A stretch of DNA of 34,048 nt from Patescibacteria group bacterium (GTDB lineage: Bacteria > Patescibacteriota > Minisyncoccia > Phycocordibacterales > GWA1-40-21), in NCBI GenBank assembly GCA_018968925.1, contig JAGWZI010000007.1:1-34048 (forward strand). Direction: 5' to 3'. The translations under genes were made by a program, and so were the position numbers. Every line of letters begins with the position of its first letter. Within the stretch, counting starts at the first letter, position 1. Under the pieces are notes generated by a model that was given only the letters and a program-made list of their open reading frames with translations, had not been told where the DNA came from and made no database searches. Below are positions 4,538 through 26,583 of the stretch, one piece after another.

Positions 4538-5605
4538 TTAATACTCGCTTGCGTCGTTCATGAAATTGTACGCGCCGCGGACTTCGAAGTGGAGGTGCGG
4601 GCCGGTCGAGTTGCCGGTGTTGCCCGAGAGTCCGATCTGCTCGCCCTGGTAGACTTCCTCGCCGACCGAAACATAGTTCGCGCTCAGATGGCCGTAGACC
4701 GTTTCCGTGCCGTTGGGATGGGCGATGGCGATGTAGTGGCCGTAGCCGCCGTTCCAGCCGGACGAACGGGAAATGATGATTTCGCCACCCGCCGCCGCAT
4801 AGACCCGAGTGCCTACCGGCGTGCCGATATCGACGGCATTATACCCATGCAACCCTTGCGTCTTCACGCCGCCTGCGAGCGGCCGGACATAATAGCCGTC
4901 AAGCCGCGGCCCGCCGTCGCCTAGATATGGCTCGACGGAAGAGCCTCGCGAGGAACCGGACAATGCGCTTGACGGAATATACGTGCCTTCGCCGTCCGGA
5001 ATGATGATCGAATCGCCGACAGCGAGCGGCGAAGACTGGTCGATACCGTTGAACTGCGCGATTTCAGCCGCATCCGCCTTGTACTTTTTGGCGATGCTTG
5101 CGAGCGTGTCGCCATTCGCCACCGTATGCATCGTGCCGGAAACTGGCAGGATGACGAGCGTCATGCCCGGCTGGATGCTCCGCGCGGTCACGTTGTTGGC
5201 CCAGATGATCGTGTTCACCGACACGCCGAACATCTTGGCGATGCTTGCGAGCGTGTCACCTTTGCGCACGACGTATTTGCTGATCTGGCCAGTATCGGCA
5301 GAATCGCCGACGTCCGCAAGCGTGCCGGACGGACCGGTATTTGAGACAAGGGCGGTGTTGTCGCCGGATACCAGGATGTCGCCGCCGCCGACCGCTCCCG
5401 AAGCGCTGAAGTTGGTCAGATTCTGCAGGAGCGGAACGTTCTGGGAATTGAATCCGGCGGATTGGCCGGCACTTGCTGAAATCGTTTGGTCGCCGGAAAA
5501 CATGACGGAAATGGCCGAAAACAGCCCGGCACTTGCCGAAAATGGAGCGGCAAAGGAAAGAAACGCCACACCAAGAGCAAGGAGCCGTTTTGAAAAAACG
5601 GCCAA
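4538..5605 (-). CDS. Secreted LysM-LysM-M23 peptidoglycan endopeptidase
   Basis: A 355-residue protein with a signal peptide (about 1-26, cut after SASA), a low-complexity linker, and two LysM peptidoglycan-binding modules (about 110-154 and 159-203). Both modules contain GDTLASIAK, encoded by near-identical DNA. A C-terminal M23 lysostaphin-type domain follows from about 237. Zinc ligands are visible as His253, Asp259 and the H-x-H at 337/339 (GPHLHFEVR). The first motif reads HGYNAVD, with five residues between His and Asp rather than the usual three. It probably cleaves cross-links in the wall during growth or appendage insertion. The start is a TTG, 10 nt after a TATAAA box; no in-frame ATG exists upstream or before the signal peptide. 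Confidence 0.92.
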   Translation of the reverse strand: MAVFSKRLLALGVAFLSFAAPFSASAGLFSAISVMFSGDQTISASAGQSAGFNSQNVPLLQNLTNFSASGAVGGGDILVSGDNTALVSNTGPSGTLADVGDSADTGQISKYVVRKGDTLASIAKMFGVSVNTIIWANNVTARSIQPGMTLVILPVSGTMHTVANGDTLASIAKKYKADAAEIAQFNGIDQSSPLAVGDSIIIPDGEGTYIPSSALSGSSRGSSVEPYLGDGGPRLDGYYVRPLAGGVKTQGLHGYNAVDIGTPVGTRVYAAAGGEIIISRSSGWNGGYGHYIAIAHPNGTETVYGHLSANYVSVGEEVYQGEQIGLSGNTGNSTGPHLHFEVRGAYNFMNDASEY

Positions 5606-16745: not shown

Positions 16746-17477
16746 ATGGACAATTTTCTGCCGGATGAATTGAAACAGCAATATGCGGCCCTGCCGCGGG
16801 AACTTCAGGCGGCCATCGCCGCCGCTGATCTGCCGGACAAGCTCCAGACGATCGCAATGGACAACAAGCTCCTGCTCGATCAGGCCGGCGGCGTGCAGAT
16901 GGAAACACTGTTGGTTCTTTTCGGGCTCGAATCGCTCGATGACTATATCGACAACCTCGTAAAAAACGCCGGACTTTCGCGCGGCCAGGCGATCGCATGT
17001 GCCAAAGAAGCGGATGACCTGATCTTCAAAAACATCCGCGAAACACTGCAAAAGCTTGATGAAGCGGAAAAAACCGCGGAAGACGAGGAAAACAAAAAAA
17101 CGGTCATGCCTTCCCGCGAGGAAATCCTCGCGGGCATCGAGAATCCGAAAAGCATCGGCGCGGCGCCTGTTGCTGCGGCGCCGGCGGCAAGTCCGGCGAC
17201 TGCTCCGATGCAGCCGGCGGGGAAGAGTGCCGAGGAAAATCTCCTGCCGGAAATTCCGCCTGCACCCGGCATGCCGGCGGTCACCGCATTCGCGCCGGAA
17301 GAGAAACCGTACCATGCGAATATTTCTCCGGCCGCCGACATCGTCGCGGCGAAGATGTCCGCACCGGTCATCGTGCCGGCGCAAACGGTCGTCGTTGAGG
17401 AAAAATCGAAACTGCCTGAGGCGAAACCCGCGTCGTCCGCGGCGGGCGCCGATCCGTATCGCGAAGCCATTTCATAA
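16746..17477 (+). CDS. Soluble Ala/Pro-rich protein of the cluster, unknown function
   Basis: A 243-residue acidic protein without signal peptide or membrane helix. The first roughly 115 residues are helical (LPRELQAAIAAADLPDKLQT, then METLLVLFGLESLDDYIDNL and IFKNIRETLQ). The rest is a low-complexity Ala/Pro/Glu linker ending in DPYREAIS. It starts 4 nt after the VirB6-like gene and ends 1 nt before prgI, so it is in the same operon. The start ATG 16746 is chosen because the longer in-frame extension overlaps the VirB6-like gene entirely. It may be a cytoplasmic adaptor or regulator of the machine; I do not recognise the fold. Confidence 0.8.
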   Translation: MDNFLPDELKQQYAALPRELQAAIAAADLPDKLQTIAMDNKLLLDQAGGVQMETLLVLFGLESLDDYIDNLVKNAGLSRGQAIACAKEADDLIFKNIRETLQKLDEAEKTAEDEENKKTVMPSREEILAGIENPKSIGAAPVAAAPAASPATAPMQPAGKSAEENLLPEIPPAPGMPAVTAFAPEEKPYHANISPAADIVAAKMSAPVIVPAQTVVVEEKSKLPEAKPASSAAGADPYREAIS

Positions 17478-17478
17478 C

Positions 17479-17910
17479 ATGCAATTCCAGGTCCCCCAAT
17501 TCATCGAAGTGGAAGACAAGATCTTTGGACCGCTCACCATCAAGCAGTTCCTCTATCTCGCGGGCGGCATCGGCATGGGCATCATCATCTGGCTCTACGT
17601 GCCGTCGAAGGTCATCGCCGTGATCCTCATCCTGCCGATCGCCGCGTTCGCCCTCGCACTTGCCTTCTATCGGATGAACGGCAAACCGTTCATCGATGTC
17701 GTCGAATCCGCCTTCTATTACTGGATCGGCGACAAGCTCTATATATGGAAAAAGGCCGACAAACAGCCAGAGCACACCTTGTCAAAAGACGTGGCGCAGG
17801 CAAAAGCGATCGTGAACGTGCCGAAAATGTCCGAATCGAAGCTCAAAGACCTCACCTGGTCGCTCGACATCAAGGAATCGCTCAACCCGGTGACGCATGA
17901 CGAGACATAA
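17479..17910 (+). CDS. PrgI-family membrane protein
   Basis: A 143-residue protein with the PrgI-type beginning (QVPQFIEVEDKIFGPLTIKQ) and two closely spaced transmembrane helices (about 22-44 and 45-66). A cytoplasmic tail follows (FIDVVESAFYYWIGDKLYIW). PrgI proteins of Gram-positive conjugation systems are small inner-membrane subunits, equivalent to VirB3, that sit beside the VirB4 ATPase. Here, too, it directly precedes the VirB4-like genes. It begins 1 nt after the previous stop. The start matches the conserved N-terminus. The stop is followed after 6 bases by the -10 of the TraC-like gene. Confidence 0.9.
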   Translation: MQFQVPQFIEVEDKIFGPLTIKQFLYLAGGIGMGIIIWLYVPSKVIAVILILPIAAFALALAFYRMNGKPFIDVVESAFYYWIGDKLYIWKKADKQPEHTLSKDVAQAKAIVNVPKMSESKLKDLTWSLDIKESLNPVTHDET

Positions 17911-17930: not shown

Positions 17931-18578
17931 ATGCCAGTCTCGAAAGCAGCGCAAGATTTCGTCCCGGTGAAGGAGATCCGCGACGGCATCGTCGTCCTCA
18001 AGGACGGCTCGCTCCGCGCGATCCTGCTCGCGTCATCCGTCAACTTCGCGCTCAAATCCGCCGACGAACAGCAGGCGATCATCCTCCAGTTCCAGAGCTT
18101 TCTGAACGCGCTCGATTTTTCTATTGAGATCTCCATCCAGTCGCGAGAGCTCGACATCCGGCCGTACATCGCCATGCTTGAAGGCCGCTACAAGAACGAG
18201 CTCGGCGACCTCATGAAAGTGCAGATCCGCGAATACATCCAGTTCGTCAAATCGTTCGTCGAACAGACGAGCATCATGACGAAGACCTTCTTCGTCGTCG
18301 TGCCGTTCTCGCCGACCATCGCGACCTCGTCGAATCCGCTCGCGACCATTACCGGCAAGAAAAAAGGCGCGGAAGCGGCGAAGAACGACCTTGCCGAATT
18401 CGAGGAGAACCGCACCCAGCTCGAGGAACGCCTCGGCGCGGTATCGCAAGGCCTCGTGCGCTGCGGCATCCGCTCGGTCCAGCTCGGCACCGAGGAGATC
18501 GTCGAGCTCTTCTACAAGACGTTCAACCCTGGCGACCTCGAAAAGCCGATGGTGCCGACGCCGGCCGCGGCCCAATAA
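17931..18578 (+). CDS. TraC-like domain protein, partner of the VirB4 ATPase
   Basis: A 215-residue protein with no signal peptide. The N-terminal block (FVPVKEIRDGIVVLKDGSLR, then SVNFALKSADEQQAII) and the region QFQSFLNALDFSIEISIQSR resemble the TraC/VirB4 N-terminal domain that docks on the membrane complex. A small charged region and a helical C-terminal part follow. It has no Walker motifs. It ends 6 nt before the ATPase gene, so the two are surely co-translated partners. In classical systems these modules are parts of one VirB4/TraC chain, so the gene looks like a detached N-terminal module. The tail ends in a short Pro/Ala segment. Confidence 0.85.
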   Translation: MPVSKAAQDFVPVKEIRDGIVVLKDGSLRAILLASSVNFALKSADEQQAIILQFQSFLNALDFSIEISIQSRELDIRPYIAMLEGRYKNELGDLMKVQIREYIQFVKSFVEQTSIMTKTFFVVVPFSPTIATSSNPLATITGKKKGAEAAKNDLAEFEENRTQLEERLGAVSQGLVRCGIRSVQLGTEEIVELFYKTFNPGDLEKPMVPTPAAAQ

Positions 18579-18584
18579 AAAACC

Positions 18585-20411
18585 ATGGCATTCCTCGATA
18601 TTTTCAAAAAGAAAGACGACAAACAGAACGAACTGACCTCGTTCCTGCCGCAGGAAATCTACGAATCCGGCGTCCTTGAACTGCAGGACGTCATCGCACC
18701 GTCCGCGCTCAAGATCTCTTCGAAAGAGCTGTCGCTCGGCGAGAAGATCGTCCGGACGTTCTTCGTCATCTCGTATCCGCGCTTCCTGACCGAAAGCTGG
18801 TTCTCGCCGATCATCAACCTCGACAAGATCTTCAACATCGCGGTCTTCATCCATCCGATCGACACGGCGAAGGTCCTGCGCCAGTTCGAGAAGAAAGTCG
18901 CCGAAGTGCAGAGCCAGATCAACGCCCGCGAGCGCAAAGGTCTCGTGCGCGACCCGATGCTCGACACCGCGTACCAGGACCTCGAAACGCTCCGCGACCA
19001 GCTCCAGCAGGCGCAGGAGAAGCTCTTCGACGTCGGCCTGTACATCAGCGTCTACGGCGATTCGGAGGACGAGCTCGACAAGATGGAAGCGGAGATCAAA
19101 TCGATCCTCGAATCGCGTCTCATCTACATCAAGCCGGCACTTTTCCAAGAGGAGCAGGGCTTCAAGAGCGTCCTGCCGATCGCGACCGACCTGCTCGCCG
19201 TCCATTCAAAGCTCAATTCCTCGCCGCTTTCCTCATTGTTCCCGTTCGTTTCCTTTGATCTGACGTCCGACAAAGGCATCCTGTACGGCATCAACCGGCA
19301 CAACTCGTCGCTCGTTCTCTTCGACCGCTTCTCGCTCGAGAACTACAACTCGATCACCTTCGCGAAATCCGGCTCCGGCAAATCCTACTGCACGAAGCTC
19401 GAGATCATCCGCTCTCTCATGTTCGATATTGACGTCATGGTCATCGATCCCGAACGGGAATACGAATCGCTCGCCGAGGCGACGGGCGGCAAGTCGTTCA
19501 ATATCTCGCTGAACTCGTCGAGCCATATCAACCCGTTCGACCTGCCCGCGCCAAAGGAAGACGAATCGCCGGCGGACGTCTTGCGGAGCAACATCATCAA
19601 CCTCGTCGGCCTCTTCCGCATCATGCTCGGCGGCCTCTCGCCCGAAGAGGACGCGATCGTCGACCGCGCCATCACCGAAACGTACGCGCTCAAGGACATC
19701 ACGCCGGATTCCGATTTCGCCGACATCGAGCCGCCGCTTCTTTCCGACTTCGAGCTCGTCCTCTCCGGCATGAAAGGCGCCGAATCGATCGTCGAACGGC
19801 TTTCGAAATACACCCGCGGCACCTGGTCTGGATTCCTGAACCGTCCGACGAACATCGACATCAACTACAAGTTCGTCGTCTTCTCGATCCGCGACATGGA
19901 AGACGAGCTCAAGCCCGTCGCCATGTACATCATCACGCACTACATCTGGAACGCTATCCGCCGCGTGCAGAAGAAGCGCCTCATGGTCATCGACGAGGCG
20001 TGGTGGATGATGAAATCGGACGACACGGCATCTTTCCTCTATTCGCTCGCCAAGCGCGGACGCAAATACTATCTCGGTCTTGCCACCATTACCCAGGACG
20101 TCGAGGACTTCCTGAAATCACCGTACGGCCTGCCGATCGTCACGAACTCGTCCATCCAGATCCTCCTGAAACAATCGCCGACCGTCGTCGACAACCTCCA
20201 GAAAGTCTTCAATCTCACCGACGAGGAAAAATACCTCCTTCTCGAATCCGACGTCGGTGAAGGCATTTTCTTCGTCGGCCTCAAGCACGTGGCCATCAAG
20301 ATCATCGCTTCCTATACCGAGGACCAGATCATCACCTCCGATCCGTCCCAATTGCTCGCCATCCGCAAGGCGAAAGAGGAGCTTGCCGCGGGCGTATCCG
20401 CGCAAAAATAG
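18585..20411 (+). CDS. VirB4/TraC-type secretion ATPase
   Basis: A 608-residue cytoplasmic ATPase that energises assembly or transport in type IV secretion. The N-terminal third is mixed alpha/beta, with a coiled-coil insert (about 95-150). Walker A is FAKSGSGKSYCTK (about 260-270) and Walker B is MVIDEAWWMM (about 466-475). Downstream are the family blocks SLAKRGRKYYLGLATITQD and VTNSSIQILLKQSP. No transmembrane segment is seen. It follows the TraC-like gene by 6 nt without a Shine-Dalgarno sequence. No VirD4-type coupling ATPase or VirB11 is seen nearby, so this appears to be the only motor of the cluster in the window. Confidence 0.93.
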   Translation: MAFLDIFKKKDDKQNELTSFLPQEIYESGVLELQDVIAPSALKISSKELSLGEKIVRTFFVISYPRFLTESWFSPIINLDKIFNIAVFIHPIDTAKVLRQFEKKVAEVQSQINARERKGLVRDPMLDTAYQDLETLRDQLQQAQEKLFDVGLYISVYGDSEDELDKMEAEIKSILESRLIYIKPALFQEEQGFKSVLPIATDLLAVHSKLNSSPLSSLFPFVSFDLTSDKGILYGINRHNSSLVLFDRFSLENYNSITFAKSGSGKSYCTKLEIIRSLMFDIDVMVIDPEREYESLAEATGGKSFNISLNSSSHINPFDLPAPKEDESPADVLRSNIINLVGLFRIMLGGLSPEEDAIVDRAITETYALKDITPDSDFADIEPPLLSDFELVLSGMKGAESIVERLSKYTRGTWSGFLNRPTNIDINYKFVVFSIRDMEDELKPVAMYIITHYIWNAIRRVQKKRLMVIDEAWWMMKSDDTASFLYSLAKRGRKYYLGLATITQDVEDFLKSPYGLPIVTNSSIQILLKQSPTVVDNLQKVFNLTDEEKYLLLESDVGEGIFFVGLKHVAIKIIASYTEDQIITSDPSQLLAIRKAKEELAAGVSAQK

Positions 20412-20433: not shown

Positions 20434-21180
20434 ATGAAATTCGCCGGAACAATATTCTCCCTCTTCATTCTCGCCGTCCCGTCGCTCGCGTTCGCGCAAA
20501 CGGCGAGTTCGACCGTTGCCGTCTCCGGAAGCGTCGATCTGGTCGTCGAGTCGACGTCTTTGGTGCCGCCGTTTTACACGGGCAAGGCGATATTCGCGAC
20601 ACAGGGTACCGCGCGGATCATCGCCCTGCCGAATGTCATGGAAAACGGCTCGGCCCTTTCGGCAAACGATCTCGTCTTCACCTGGCAACGAGATGGTCAG
20701 ACATTGTCCGCCGAATCCGGGGCGGGCAAGGATGCGATCACCGTCTCGGGTACGGTGCCGATCCGCGATATCAGCGTGTCAGTGAGCGTATCGGACGCGT
20801 CCGGCAACGTTCTCGCGACCGCCTCGAAGATCCTCTCACCGGCCGATCCGAAGGTCCTTGTCTACGAGGACAATCCGCTCTACGGCATCCTGTTCAACAA
20901 AGCGATGTCGGGAAATTATTATCTCGGCCAGCGGAGCGAGCTCGATCTTGTCGCCGAACCGTATTTCTTCAATCTCGCAAGCATCGACGGCCAGGACTCG
21001 ACGTACAAATGGTTCGTCAACGGGAATTATGCGAGCCCTTCGGGCGCGTCAAACGAGCTCATCCTCAAGCAGGCCGGGAACAATCTTTCGGGCACGGCCG
21101 CCGTAACCCTCGACGCGAACAACAACGACCGCATCTTCCAATACGCGAGCACGAACTTTAACGTCAACTTCGGCATATGA
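20434..21180 (+). CDS. Secreted protein of unknown function, probably two Ig-like domains
   Basis: A 248-residue protein with a clear signal peptide (1-22, cut after AFA). The mature chain is beta-rich. It has one segment with LVFTWQRDGQTL, then a hinge LVYEDNPLYGILFNKAM, then a second segment with TYKWFVNGNYA. The two Trp-containing strands and alternating polar/hydrophobic pattern suggest two immunoglobulin-like folds. There are no Cys residues or catalytic motifs. Its TGA overlaps the ATG of the pilin-like gene (ATGA), so the two products are translated together and probably act together outside the membrane. The specific function is unknown. Confidence 0.82.
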   Translation: MKFAGTIFSLFILAVPSLAFAQTASSTVAVSGSVDLVVESTSLVPPFYTGKAIFATQGTARIIALPNVMENGSALSANDLVFTWQRDGQTLSAESGAGKDAITVSGTVPIRDISVSVSVSDASGNVLATASKILSPADPKVLVYEDNPLYGILFNKAMSGNYYLGQRSELDLVAEPYFFNLASIDGQDSTYKWFVNGNYASPSGASNELILKQAGNNLSGTAAVTLDANNNDRIFQYASTNFNVNFGI

Positions 21181-22097
21181 AAAAACTGGTCATGACATTC
21201 GGCATCGTTTTCGTCCTCCTTGCATCCGCGGGGATGACGGCGCGCGCCCAGAGCAACCAGAACAATGTCATCTGTTCGCCGACCACCAATACGACGGCGT
21301 CCGGACAGAACTGCTATACGCCGCTCCAGCCGGCGGCCTTTGCCGGCATCACGGGCAACACGACCGACCTCGGCTCATTCCTCGGTTCCGTCTTCAATTG
21401 GGGCATCGCCGTCGCCGTGGCGCTCGCGCTCATCATGATCATCTGGGGCGGCATCGAAAAGATGACGACCGATTCCTGGCAGAAAAAAGATGAGGGGCAA
21501 AAAAGGATCGAGAATGCGCTCTGGGGGCTCGGTCTCGCGCTCGTATCATGGCTCATTCTTTATATCATCAATCCGACGCTCGTCACCTTCAGCGGCAATA
21601 CCCTGCTCAATTCGAGCGTCATACCCGTTCCGCAGACGAGCACGAATTCCTCGCTCCTCAATACGGCAGGGCAGACAACGAACGCATCGTCACCGTCGGG
21701 CAATGCCGCCGGATGCTCAAGCTGCGTGCCGGCGTCCCAGGAAGGCCTGACCTGCAAAACGACCGGTTGCGAGCTCAACCAAACGCTTGCCACGGAACTC
21801 GCCCAAGCATTTTCGCAACCGGGCGTACCGGCGGCACAAGTGACGGAAGGGTATCCGCCGACGGTCGACCATATATCCGCTTGCCATCAGAACGGCACCT
21901 GCGCCGACGTGAACCTCGTCAGCAAATCGACGAGCGTAAGCGACGTCGGCCAGCTCTATAACGCCATGATCGGCGCCGGGCTCAATCCGGCATACGAGAC
22001 GGCAAGCGCGGCCGCATGCCAACCGTATATCACCGCAAACATCAAATGCATCGTCGCGTCAGACAACACCGCCCCGTCATTTCATGTAAATATGTAA
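21177..22097 (+). CDS. Type IV secretion pilin-like membrane protein with a DD-peptidase-like C-terminal domain
   Basis: A 306-residue protein with a signal peptide (1-25). A VirB2-type core follows with two hydrophobic helices (about 64-90, NWGIAVAVALALIMIIWGGI; about 112-135, LWGLGLALVSWLILYIINP) joined by a polar loop rich in Lys/Glu/Gln. Such TM-loop-TM proteins in Patescibacteria are usually called T4SS pilins. After a Ser/Thr linker comes an extra domain (about 180-306) with VTEGYPPTVDH, then His237-x2-Gly240-x3-Asp244 (CHQNGTCAD), and His303 near the end (SFHV). This spacing matches the zinc site of M15/Hedgehog-type D-Ala-D-Ala peptidases. The usual acidic residue just before the last His is not evident, so activity is uncertain. 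The gene overlaps the preceding one by 4 nt. Confidence 0.8.
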   Translation: MKKLVMTFGIVFVLLASAGMTARAQSNQNNVICSPTTNTTASGQNCYTPLQPAAFAGITGNTTDLGSFLGSVFNWGIAVAVALALIMIIWGGIEKMTTDSWQKKDEGQKRIENALWGLGLALVSWLILYIINPTLVTFSGNTLLNSSVIPVPQTSTNSSLLNTAGQTTNASSPSGNAAGCSSCVPASQEGLTCKTTGCELNQTLATELAQAFSQPGVPAAQVTEGYPPTVDHISACHQNGTCADVNLVSKSTSVSDVGQLYNAMIGAGLNPAYETASAAACQPYITANIKCIVASDNTAPSFHVNM

Positions 22098-22101
22098 AAA
22101 C

Positions 22102-23334
22102 ATGTCGAGACGCACCGCCATTATTGCCATCATAGCCGTAGCGATCCTCATCATCGGGGGACTGTATCTTTGGTATTCCGGCTCGAGCGGGAACAAACAG
22201 GCGTCGGCAACGGCGACATCGACGGCGAATCCGTTCGGTGCCGCGCCGGGGAACGCCGCGGGAACGGGCGCGAACAACGCGGGCATAAGCGGAGGAAATG
22301 CCGGAACCGCAAAAGGAAGGCTCGTCGAACTTTCCGCGAATCCGACGTCCGGCTCGGTCTTCTTCGCGACATCGAGCAACCAGGACGTTCTCGAATACGT
22401 CGACCGGGCCACCGGCAACGTGTATCAGTACGTCGCACAAACGCGGACCGGACAGCCGGTACGCCTGACGAACACGACCATACCCAAAATCCAGCAAACG
22501 GTCTGGTCGGCCGCCGGCCAGAGCGCCATCTACCGATATTTGAACGACGCCGGCGAGATCGTCAGTTTTTCGGGAACGATGCAGTTCGCTTCGTCGAGCG
22601 GCGGACTCGGATCGATCGGCGGCGTATTTCTTGTCCGGAATCTTGTTTCGCTTGCGGCCGACCCGGCAGGGAAACAGGTGTTCGGCATTCTTGAAAAAGA
22701 CGACGGTTCGGGCAGTTACGGCATTGTCTCAAACTTCGACGGTACGAAACGCAAGGAGATCGTCGCTTCGCCCGTTTCTTTCTGGAACGTCGCCTGGCCG
22801 GCGGAAAACACGATCACCATGACGACGAAGCCTGCGTCCGAAGAATACGGCTATCTGTACTTCCTCAATCCGCAGACATCCGCATTCACGAGGATCCTCG
22901 GCGGCATCGCCGGCCTTTCGACCCGTGTGAACAGCGACGCGAGCAAGGTCGCCTATTCGGCAAGTGCGAACGGTTCGGTCGAACTTTCCATCTACACCGT
23001 TGCGAACGGCACGATGCAAGATACCGGCCTCGCAACGCTCGCCGACAAATGCGTGTGGAGCGCGAAGAGCAAGAATATTTTGTATTGCGCCGTACCGCAG
23101 ATAATCGCCTCGGATTCGTATCCGGATGCGTGGTACCAGGGCACGGAGAGTTTTTCCGACAATATCTGGACAATCGACACGGACACCGGCGCGACGACCG
23201 AACTGTATCAGATAGGCAAAAATGAAAATGCGAGCATTGATGCGATGAACCTGGTGGTCAGCCCCGACGGAAACTATCTCGCCTTCCAGAACAAGAACGA
23301 TCTCAGCGAGTGGGTCCTCGATATCAACCAATAG
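22102..23334 (+). CDS. Membrane-anchored beta-propeller-like protein of unknown function
   Basis: A 410-residue protein with an N-terminal signal anchor (about 5-24, AIIAIIAVAILIIGGLYLWY) and a Gly/Ala/Asn-rich linker to about 75. It then has a long beta-rich extracytoplasmic region. Repeating pieces such as VFFATSSNQDVLEYVDRATG, VAYSASANGSVELSIYTVAN and VVSPDGNYLAFQNKN look like TolB/PD40-type propeller blades. It is the last plus-strand gene of the cluster, 4 nt after the pilin-like gene. Its stop codon directly abuts the stop of the convergent jag gene, so no terminator spacer is present. It may be a scaffold or ligand-binding subunit, which is inferred. Confidence 0.82.
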   Translation: MSRRTAIIAIIAVAILIIGGLYLWYSGSSGNKQASATATSTANPFGAAPGNAAGTGANNAGISGGNAGTAKGRLVELSANPTSGSVFFATSSNQDVLEYVDRATGNVYQYVAQTRTGQPVRLTNTTIPKIQQTVWSAAGQSAIYRYLNDAGEIVSFSGTMQFASSSGGLGSIGGVFLVRNLVSLAADPAGKQVFGILEKDDGSGSYGIVSNFDGTKRKEIVASPVSFWNVAWPAENTITMTTKPASEEYGYLYFLNPQTSAFTRILGGIAGLSTRVNSDASKVAYSASANGSVELSIYTVANGTMQDTGLATLADKCVWSAKSKNILYCAVPQIIASDSYPDAWYQGTESFSDNIWTIDTDTGATTELYQIGKNENASIDAMNLVVSPDGNYLAFQNKNDLSEWVLDINQ

Positions 23335-25183: not shown

Positions 25184-25238
25184 CATTGTGCGCAACATGT
25201 GAACAAACGGATCGTTTTTGCGAAAAACCCGCAGAGCA

Positions 25239-25244
25239 TATAAT
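25239..25244 (+). promoter_or_regulatory. -10 box for dnaA
   Basis: TATAAT ends 7 nt before ATG 25252; TTTTTG lies 18 nt upstream. Confidence 0.7.
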
Positions 25245-25251
25245 AACGACC

Positions 25252-26583
25252 ATGATCGAAAACAAAACTCTCTGGAACAACGTCCTTGCCCAGATAGAGC
25301 TTGCCGTCTCCAAAGCGAATTTCAGCATGTGGTTCAAGGATACCCACGTCGTCAAACAGGAGGACGGCACGGTGTATATCGGCGTGCCGAATATCTTCGT
25401 CAAGGATTGGCTCATGAACAAGTACCACAAGGACATCATGCGGAGTTTGCGGGCTTTCGGTGAGAACGTCCGGGGCGCCGAATACGTCGTCTCGAAAGGG
25501 GAAACGAAGCGGCAGGAAAAAGAGGTCCCTAACGCAAACGAATTGCCGCTCGCCGACCTCTACATCAACAAAGAGGACAATCTGAACCCGAAATACACCT
25601 TCAAGACGTTCGTTGTCGGTCCGTTCAACGAGCTTGCCTACGCCGCGTCGCAGGCAATCCTGAAACGCACCGCCGCCTACAATCCGCTCTTCATCTTCGG
25701 CTCGACCGGTCACGGCAAAACACACCTCATCCAGGCGATCGGCAACCAATTCAAGGAGGATTATCCCGAGAAGAAAGTGTACTACCTGTCCTCGGAATCG
25801 TTCGTGAACGATTATTTGAATTCGCTGAACTCGGGCGATATCAACCGGTTCAAGGAGAAATACAAGAAATACGACACGCTCATCATCGACGACATCCAAT
25901 TCCTTTCGGCGAAGAACAAGACGCAGGAGGAATTCTTCCACCTCTTCAACCATTTCCATGAGGCGAACAAACAACTCATCTTCTCGTCCGACAAGCATCC
26001 GAATTTCATCCCCGACCTCGAGGATCGCATCAAGTCGCGCTTCAACGCTGGCATGATCCTTGAGATCGTCAAGCCGGATTTCGAGTCCCGCATCCAGATT
26101 TTCAAGAAAAAATCGTCGCTTGCAAACCTTACCCTTTCGAACGAGATGATCGAATTCCTCGCCTCGTCGATCGAGGGAAATATCCGGGAACTCGAGGGTA
26201 TTCTCAACCTCATCCGCTGCCAGACCGATCTGAAGGGTCGGGAGCTCAACATCAATGAAGTGAAGGATTTGATCAAAAACACCTCGAAACCGAAGAAAAA
26301 CACCTCGGTCACCGACGTGATCCGCATCGTATCCGACTTTTACGGCATTGAGAAGGAGCATATCGCCGAAAAAGGCCGGAAAAAGGAGGTGATCAAACCA
26401 CGGCAGGTGATCATGTACCTGCTGCGGGAGGATTTTGACATATCATTCCCGTCGATCGGCGAGAAAGTCGGTGGCCGGGACCACTCGACGGTCATCCATT
26501 CGTATGAGAAGGTGAAGAACGACCTGAAGACCGATCCGGAGCTTGTTCAGGAAATAGAACGGATACGCTCGATGTTAAAATGA
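25252..26583 (+). CDS. dnaA: Chromosomal replication initiator DnaA
   Basis: A 443-residue AAA+ initiator that melts the origin and loads the replicative helicase. Domain I is at the N-terminus ([20 protein letters not shown]) and the linker is short. The AAA+ domain has Walker A GSTGHGKT (about 151-158), Walker [10 protein letters not shown] and sensor-1 FSSDKHP. The C-terminal DNA-binding domain carries the DnaA signature [16 protein letters not shown]. The ATG at 25252 is chosen because the upstream in-frame start at 25186 precedes the TATAAT and would put the DnaA box inside the gene. Divergent from rpmH; dnaN follows after 176 nt. Confidence 0.98.

Follow-up and report, generated by a model that had tools for sequence, protein, structure and literature searches.

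Patescibacteria are thought to live on other cells, and T4SS pilins are already known from this group. As far as the sections of a 2025 survey considered here go, VirB2-like pilins are present in 1,948 assemblies, most of them without VirB1, pilus biogenesis was concluded to be VirB1-independent, and dnaA is found near the T4SS cluster (PMC12102498). Hedgehog domains of bacteria are known as well; namely, BacHh has been described from about a dozen bacteria/species with zinc- and calcium-binding residues identical to those of Shh, and pilin is not mentioned in that description (Roelink 2018, PMC6027127). In Shh, the zinc ion is bound by H141, D148, and H183, E177 is catalytic with H135 and H181 assisting, and the calcium ligands are E90, E91, D96, E127, D130, and D132 (PMC8052667). 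Here, the window under analysis is the whole stretch of 34,048 nucleotides that represents contig 7 of a 579 kb genome, and its ORF for the protein P0001 joins a T4SS pilin to a C-terminal domain that is predicted to be Hedgehog-like (Table 1).

P0001 shares with the Patescibacteria VirB2/T4SS pilins of the survey sections mentioned above (PF18895; PMC12102498) a signal peptide, a two-helix pilin, and a virB4 neighbourhood near dnaA; those sections make no mention of enzymatic C-terminal tails or of their turnover. The assignment of P0001 to T4SS pilins (PF18895) is based on a match of residues 67-131 above the Pfam cut-off of 26.6 (E 1.1e-7, 32.2 bits), on the hairpin that follows the signal peptide, and on PrgI and VirB4 being encoded upstream. 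In the full-length model, indeed, the N-terminal helix and the hairpin are followed by a linker modelled with very low confidence and by a C-terminal domain modelled confidently, and two claims of an earlier sequence-only reading of this DNA are thereby borne out: that there are two pilin-type helices, and that the protein runs for about 170 residues past them. The ORF is intact, starts with ATG, and overlaps by 4 nt with the stop of the upstream ORF. A frame artefact as the origin of the C-terminus was excluded, since the ORF is intact and the domain is conserved. That the C-terminal domain is more than a chance extension is also indicated by its presence in 39 of the 397 genomes of the order (searched with a profile built from P0001 plus one relative) together with the invariance of Asp244 in 60 copies.

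Table 1. Features of P0001 and its neighbours, in positions of the window (Shh, residue numbering of Shh; conservation as copies with the residue among non-redundant domain copies)
Feature	Positions	Strand	Basis or conservation
ORF with PrgI/VirB3-like protein (PrgI part ~17503-17736)	17056..17910	+	PF12666, E 1.6e-11
Probable N-terminal part of VirB4, separate ORF	17931..18578	+	Inferred from position and sequence; no Pfam match
VirB4 ATPase	18585..20411	+	TraG P-loop, E 2e-25; AAA_10
Conserved secreted protein, upstream neighbour of the pilin slot	20434..21180	+	Syntenic in most loci; no Pfam match
P0001, T4SS pilin with Hedgehog-like (LAS/M15 superfamily) domain	21177..22097	+	306 aa
Signal-peptide-like helix, aa 1-24	21177..21248	+	Sequence; helix 2-23 in full-length model
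T4SS_pilin domain, two-helix hairpin, aa 67-131	21375..21569	+	PF18895; helices 65-97 and 101-131 in model
Disordered linker, aa 140-176	21594..21704	+	pLDDT < 50 in full-length model
Hedgehog-like domain, 127 residues, aa 180-306	21714..22094	+	AlphaFold2 model; PDB profile and fold matches
Glu224 (Shh Ca ligand Glu127)	21846..21848	+	58/60; gapless VTEG[YW] match
His232 (Shh His135)	21870..21872	+	58/60
Cys236-Cys242 pair bracketing the metal motif	21882..21902	+	58/60 and 59/60
His237 (Shh Zn ligand His141)	21885..21887	+	57/60
Asp244 (Shh Zn ligand Asp148)	21906..21908	+	60/60
Glu274 (catalytic Shh Glu177)	21996..21998	+	58/60; aligned with Shh
Ser301-Phe-His303, third-ligand pair	22077..22085	+	Family: HxS, HxH, or [SAN]xH
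Conserved membrane-anchored beta-propeller-like protein, downstream neighbour	22102..23334	+	Syntenic in most loci; weak DPPIV_N/S9_N

The order of virB4, secreted protein, pilin, and propeller is kept among order-level relatives, and the pilin therefore occupies a conserved slot. A peptidoglycan-binding protein is encoded further upstream of PrgI/VirB4, and KH/Jag genes, which were named from reading the sequence, follow the propeller-like gene on the opposite strand. VirB4 is divided into two in-frame ORFs with a stop and six bases between them, which reflects either a natural split or a feature of the assembly or sequence. We also noticed a dnaA-like gene (25186-26583) that follows the T4SS cluster at a distance of a few kb and, as a further wall enzyme of the same cell, a secreted LysM + M23 peptidase at 4538-5605 on the minus strand. 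On contig 15 of the same genome, away from virB4, short pilins without tails are encoded in a tandem array (L002), and such arrays were also found in relatives of the genus and family (L081-L087).

When P0001 alone was compared with PDB and Pfam, its C-terminus had no match, and a match of a two-sequence profile to CdiA was judged to be chance. With the profile of an alignment of 43 sequences of the domain (A5), the top 23 matches in PDB were all Hedgehog N-terminal domains (best E 2.7e-5), and only Hedgehogs were hit at E < 0.1; an alignment of 17 sequences gave the identical ranking with an E of 5.9e-4, and hhalign of the domain family against Shh, one-to-one, gave 91.9%. AlphaFold2 supplied with A5 modelled residues 180-306 with a pLDDT of 95.7 and a pTM of 0.88, and in a Foldseek search of PDB with this model, ranks 1-36 were all Hedgehog (prob 0.96-1.00, TMq 0.52-0.63), after which VanY, MepA, and then VanX (rank 45) appeared. 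Among viral models, phage cell-wall hydrolases and M15 peptidases were the best matches. All Foldseek E-values were above 0.001, and the weight of the fold matches thus lies in their consistent ranking and in their agreement with the independent sequence profile. Taken together, the profile matches in PDB and the fold matches of the AlphaFold2 model uphold the proposal of the sequence-only reading that the pilin is fused to a domain of predicted Hedgehog/DD-peptidase-like fold.

The domain resembles the Hedgehog N-domain (PF01085) and BacHh in its predicted fold, in the TEG[YW] motif, and in the equivalents of H135, H141, D148, and E177, but differs from Hedgehog in that the identity is 13-23% in fold alignments, a Cys pair is located at the metal site, and most residues of the calcium site are missing. 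Indeed, none of 34 genomes exceeded the cut-off of PF01085, with two domain loci matched weakly, and no Hint autoprocessing domain is present, P0001 being terminated by the Hedgehog-like domain at residue 306. With M15/LAS peptidases such as VanX, VanY, and MepA, the domain has in common the superfamily, the H-x(6)-D motif (H237-x6-D244), and the next-best fold matches; nonetheless, neither P0001 nor the domain family has a Pfam match to M15, and the E/D-x-x-H motif is absent, with no acidic residue at -3 of either 301 or 303 and with Glu274 sitting 27 residues before position 301. Plain M15 membership was dropped for the lack of a Pfam match and of ExxH. In its proposed role, namely opening the wall for T4SS, P0001 is comparable to the wall hydrolases of the VirB1/PrgK/TraG type; these are separate SLT/CHAP proteins, however, whereas the domain of P0001 is of the LAS type and resides on a pilin. 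As Pfam detected no SLT or CHAP domain in P0001, its identity as SLT/VirB1 was also dropped, and the likeness to VirB1 is a functional proposal only.

The metal motif of P0001 reads C236-H237-x2-G240-x-C242-x-D244, and its C-terminus reads P-S301-F-H303-V-N-M; C236, G240, C242, D244, and E274 are invariant in the 43 sequences of A5. The stretch VTEGYPPTVDH matches VTEGWDEDGHH of Shh without a gap (VTEG[YW] as the family motif), by which Glu224 is recognised as the only equivalent of the Shh calcium ligands: D130 and D132 correspond to Pro227 and Thr229, and equivalents of Glu90/91 and Asp96 are not recognisable in the domain. Cys236 and Cys242 probably form a disulfide, and conserved Cys pairs fit export.

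The sequence-only reading had placed His237, Gly240, Asp244, and His303 correctly, including the H-x(6)-D spacing, and its expectation of conserved ligands holds for His237 and Asp244 in the 60 non-redundant copies (Table 1) but not for His303, which is present in 24 of the 57 copies alignable in the last motif, His301 being commoner (52/57). It had also described the acidic residue as not evident and had taken the domain as possibly inactive for that reason. Glu274 is aligned with Shh Glu177, however, so that the general base is present in P0001 and inactivity does not follow from a missing acid, while Ser301 is a separate reason for doubt. Among the 57 copies, the third-ligand motif is H-x-S in 33, H-x-H in 19, and [S/A/N]-x-H in five, and no copy lacks both His residues. 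P0001, with Ser301 and His303 only, is one of these five copies, all of which keep the second His (chance of ~0.01 by the hypergeometric distribution with phylogeny ignored). The register relative to Shh H183 is ambiguous, as MAFFT pairs it with H303 and global hhalign with position 301; the Hedgehog zinc triad thus has H237 and D244 in place, and depending on the alignment, its third member is either lost (S301) or kept (H303). Either the third ligand can be provided from 301 or 303, or P0001 may have lost it.

A DNA-pattern scan of genome contigs revealed 44 loci with the Hedgehog-like domain, and 380 genomes spread over the phylum yielded 12. Apart from two viral contigs, all records with the family bear the name of a Patescibacteria lineage or plain "bacterium"; together with the T4SS genes of the window, this occurrence assigns the genome to the Patescibacteria. 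Fusion with a pilin is the prevailing state (59/67 non-redundant domains, ~88%); among the remainder, some are anchored by a single TM beside a pilin-fused copy (L120, L122), and one is a phage protein (L132). In the IMG/VR contigs L132 and L133, one of which is 257 kb, this 466-aa protein terminates in a related domain that lacks the Cys pair and contains HFTGNAIDL, NEY, and TGDHLHLDM.

At the slot downstream of virB4, the pilin has no tail or has a Hedgehog-like, M15-like, lysozyme-type, or coiled tail. In a sample of 42 slot pilins from relatives, 16 had no tail, 12 a long tail without assignment, eight a tail that we call A2, two a Hedgehog-like tail, one each M15_4 and glucosaminidase, and two other tails; even within the genus of P0001, the slot pilin has a Hedgehog-like, A2, unassigned, or no tail. 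A2 tails (VTAGTE...HWHV) are M15/Hedgehog-like by motif, and while hhalign did not join them with the Hedgehog-like group, L129 matches both profiles, from which homology of the two tail types appears likely. Mapped on a tree built from the two flanking genes, the tail state requires at least 26 changes over 67 loci and the Hedgehog-like tail alone 13, at least six of which are forced by well-supported branches; many branches are long or weak, and the exact number is hence soft, but the repeated turnover at the slot is not. SLT, SLT_3, and M23 are borne by pilins encoded elsewhere than at the slot. Given the enzyme domains on pilins other than P0001, which comprise SLT (2.6e-14), SLT_3 (1.1e-9), M15_4 (7.7e-13), M23, and glucosaminidase, wall hydrolysis is a recurring theme of the tails.

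Several individual pilins are also worth describing. In a 568-aa pilin (L141:170-1873), a second M15-like stretch (HGFGFAVDL) comes after a Hedgehog-like domain, a 683-aa slot pilin (L038:843-2891) has a long tail resembling a right-handed beta-helix and matches Pfam in its pilin part only, and a 907-aa slot pilin (L036:1545-4265) has its pilin part between fibronectin/phosphatase-like domains on the N-terminal side and an M15_4 peptidase on the C-terminal side.

Based on these results, we consider it probable that P0001 is a specialised subunit of a chromosomal virB4-linked T4SS and that its domain, located in the wall zone, binds and/or trims stem peptides. VirB2-type pilins have both termini outside the membrane; the signal peptide and VirB2-type hairpin would insert P0001 into the membrane or the pilus so that its C-terminus faces outward, and the flexible linker of 35-40 residues would carry the disulfide-stabilised Hedgehog-like domain to the wall zone. 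There, the domain may bind and/or trim stem peptides of the peptidoglycan, either of its own cell or of the host cell, where the channel or pilus passes, and the tailed pilin would thereby do in cis the job that a separate VirB1 does elsewhere. Because the same genome has an array of untailed pilins, the tailed subunit may enter the pilus as a minor component or as one of its tip or base. The system can in general do without a wall domain, given that the slot pilins surveyed are often untailed or have a long unassigned tail.

What speaks against this reading is Ser301 at a position occupied by His in 52 of 57 relatives, and a less probable alternative is that the metal site is degenerate and the domain is a binding module that docks the pilin to peptidoglycan or the host surface, in analogy to the "pseudo-active" site with which animal Hedgehog binds receptors and matrix. 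The Hedgehog fold is indeed known for binding proteins and matrix (PMC8052667), and the loss of the commonest His is confined to five of the 57 copies. Nevertheless, P0001 retains His232, His237, Asp244, and Glu274, and the lack of any copy without both His residues suggests that the third ligand is still under selection, with the statistical reservation on phylogeny given above. To our knowledge, Hedgehog itself is no proven peptidase.

The preferred reading of P0001 as a T4SS subunit also has to be compared with two others in which the tail or the hairpin plays a different part. It is somewhat unlikely that the hairpin is an anchor or export signal only and never enters the pilus, leaving P0001 as a membrane-anchored, VirB1-like hydrolase at the channel base: the short pilins of L002 could then supply the pilus, and a few domains are held by a single TM without any pilin beside a pilin-fused copy (L120, L122), but across the order, conservation is highest in the pilin part, and proteins without a tail retain it as well, which argues for a function of the pilin itself. 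The fast turnover of tails at a single slot, as is expected of a host-range determinant, and the coiled or repeat-like appearance of some tails would fit an adhesin-like tip, in which folds of wall enzymes have been recruited as binding scaffolds for choosing the host. This reading is quite unlikely, however, as the active-site residues of the Hedgehog-like domain stand out from its remainder by much higher conservation, and tails of the SLT, M23, and M15_4 types are canonical wall hydrolases.

Our searches of the open-access literature turned up no account of wall-active tails on pilins and none of this Hedgehog-like domain family, and both the pilin-tail architecture and the domain family appear to be undescribed. 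Tentatively, the pilin could be regarded as a modular platform, where one syntenic gene repeatedly acquires, sheds, and exchanges wall-active domains at its C-terminal end, including the new Hedgehog-like family, and where the pilus subunit carries the wall-opening activity of the missing VirB1 and perhaps an activity in host choice. For part of the VirB1-less genomes, we thus offer the alternative reading that the function of VirB1 sits on a tailed pilin.

In conclusion, a pilin with its own LAS-type domain and with interchangeable tails offers a concrete, testable answer to the question of T4SS wall passage in Patescibacteria, and tailed pilins may explain how these bacteria get their T4SS through cell walls. 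Bacterial Hedgehog-like domains can furthermore be placed in the genomic setting of a machine that crosses walls, and this is relevant to how the Hedgehog fold of animals originated.
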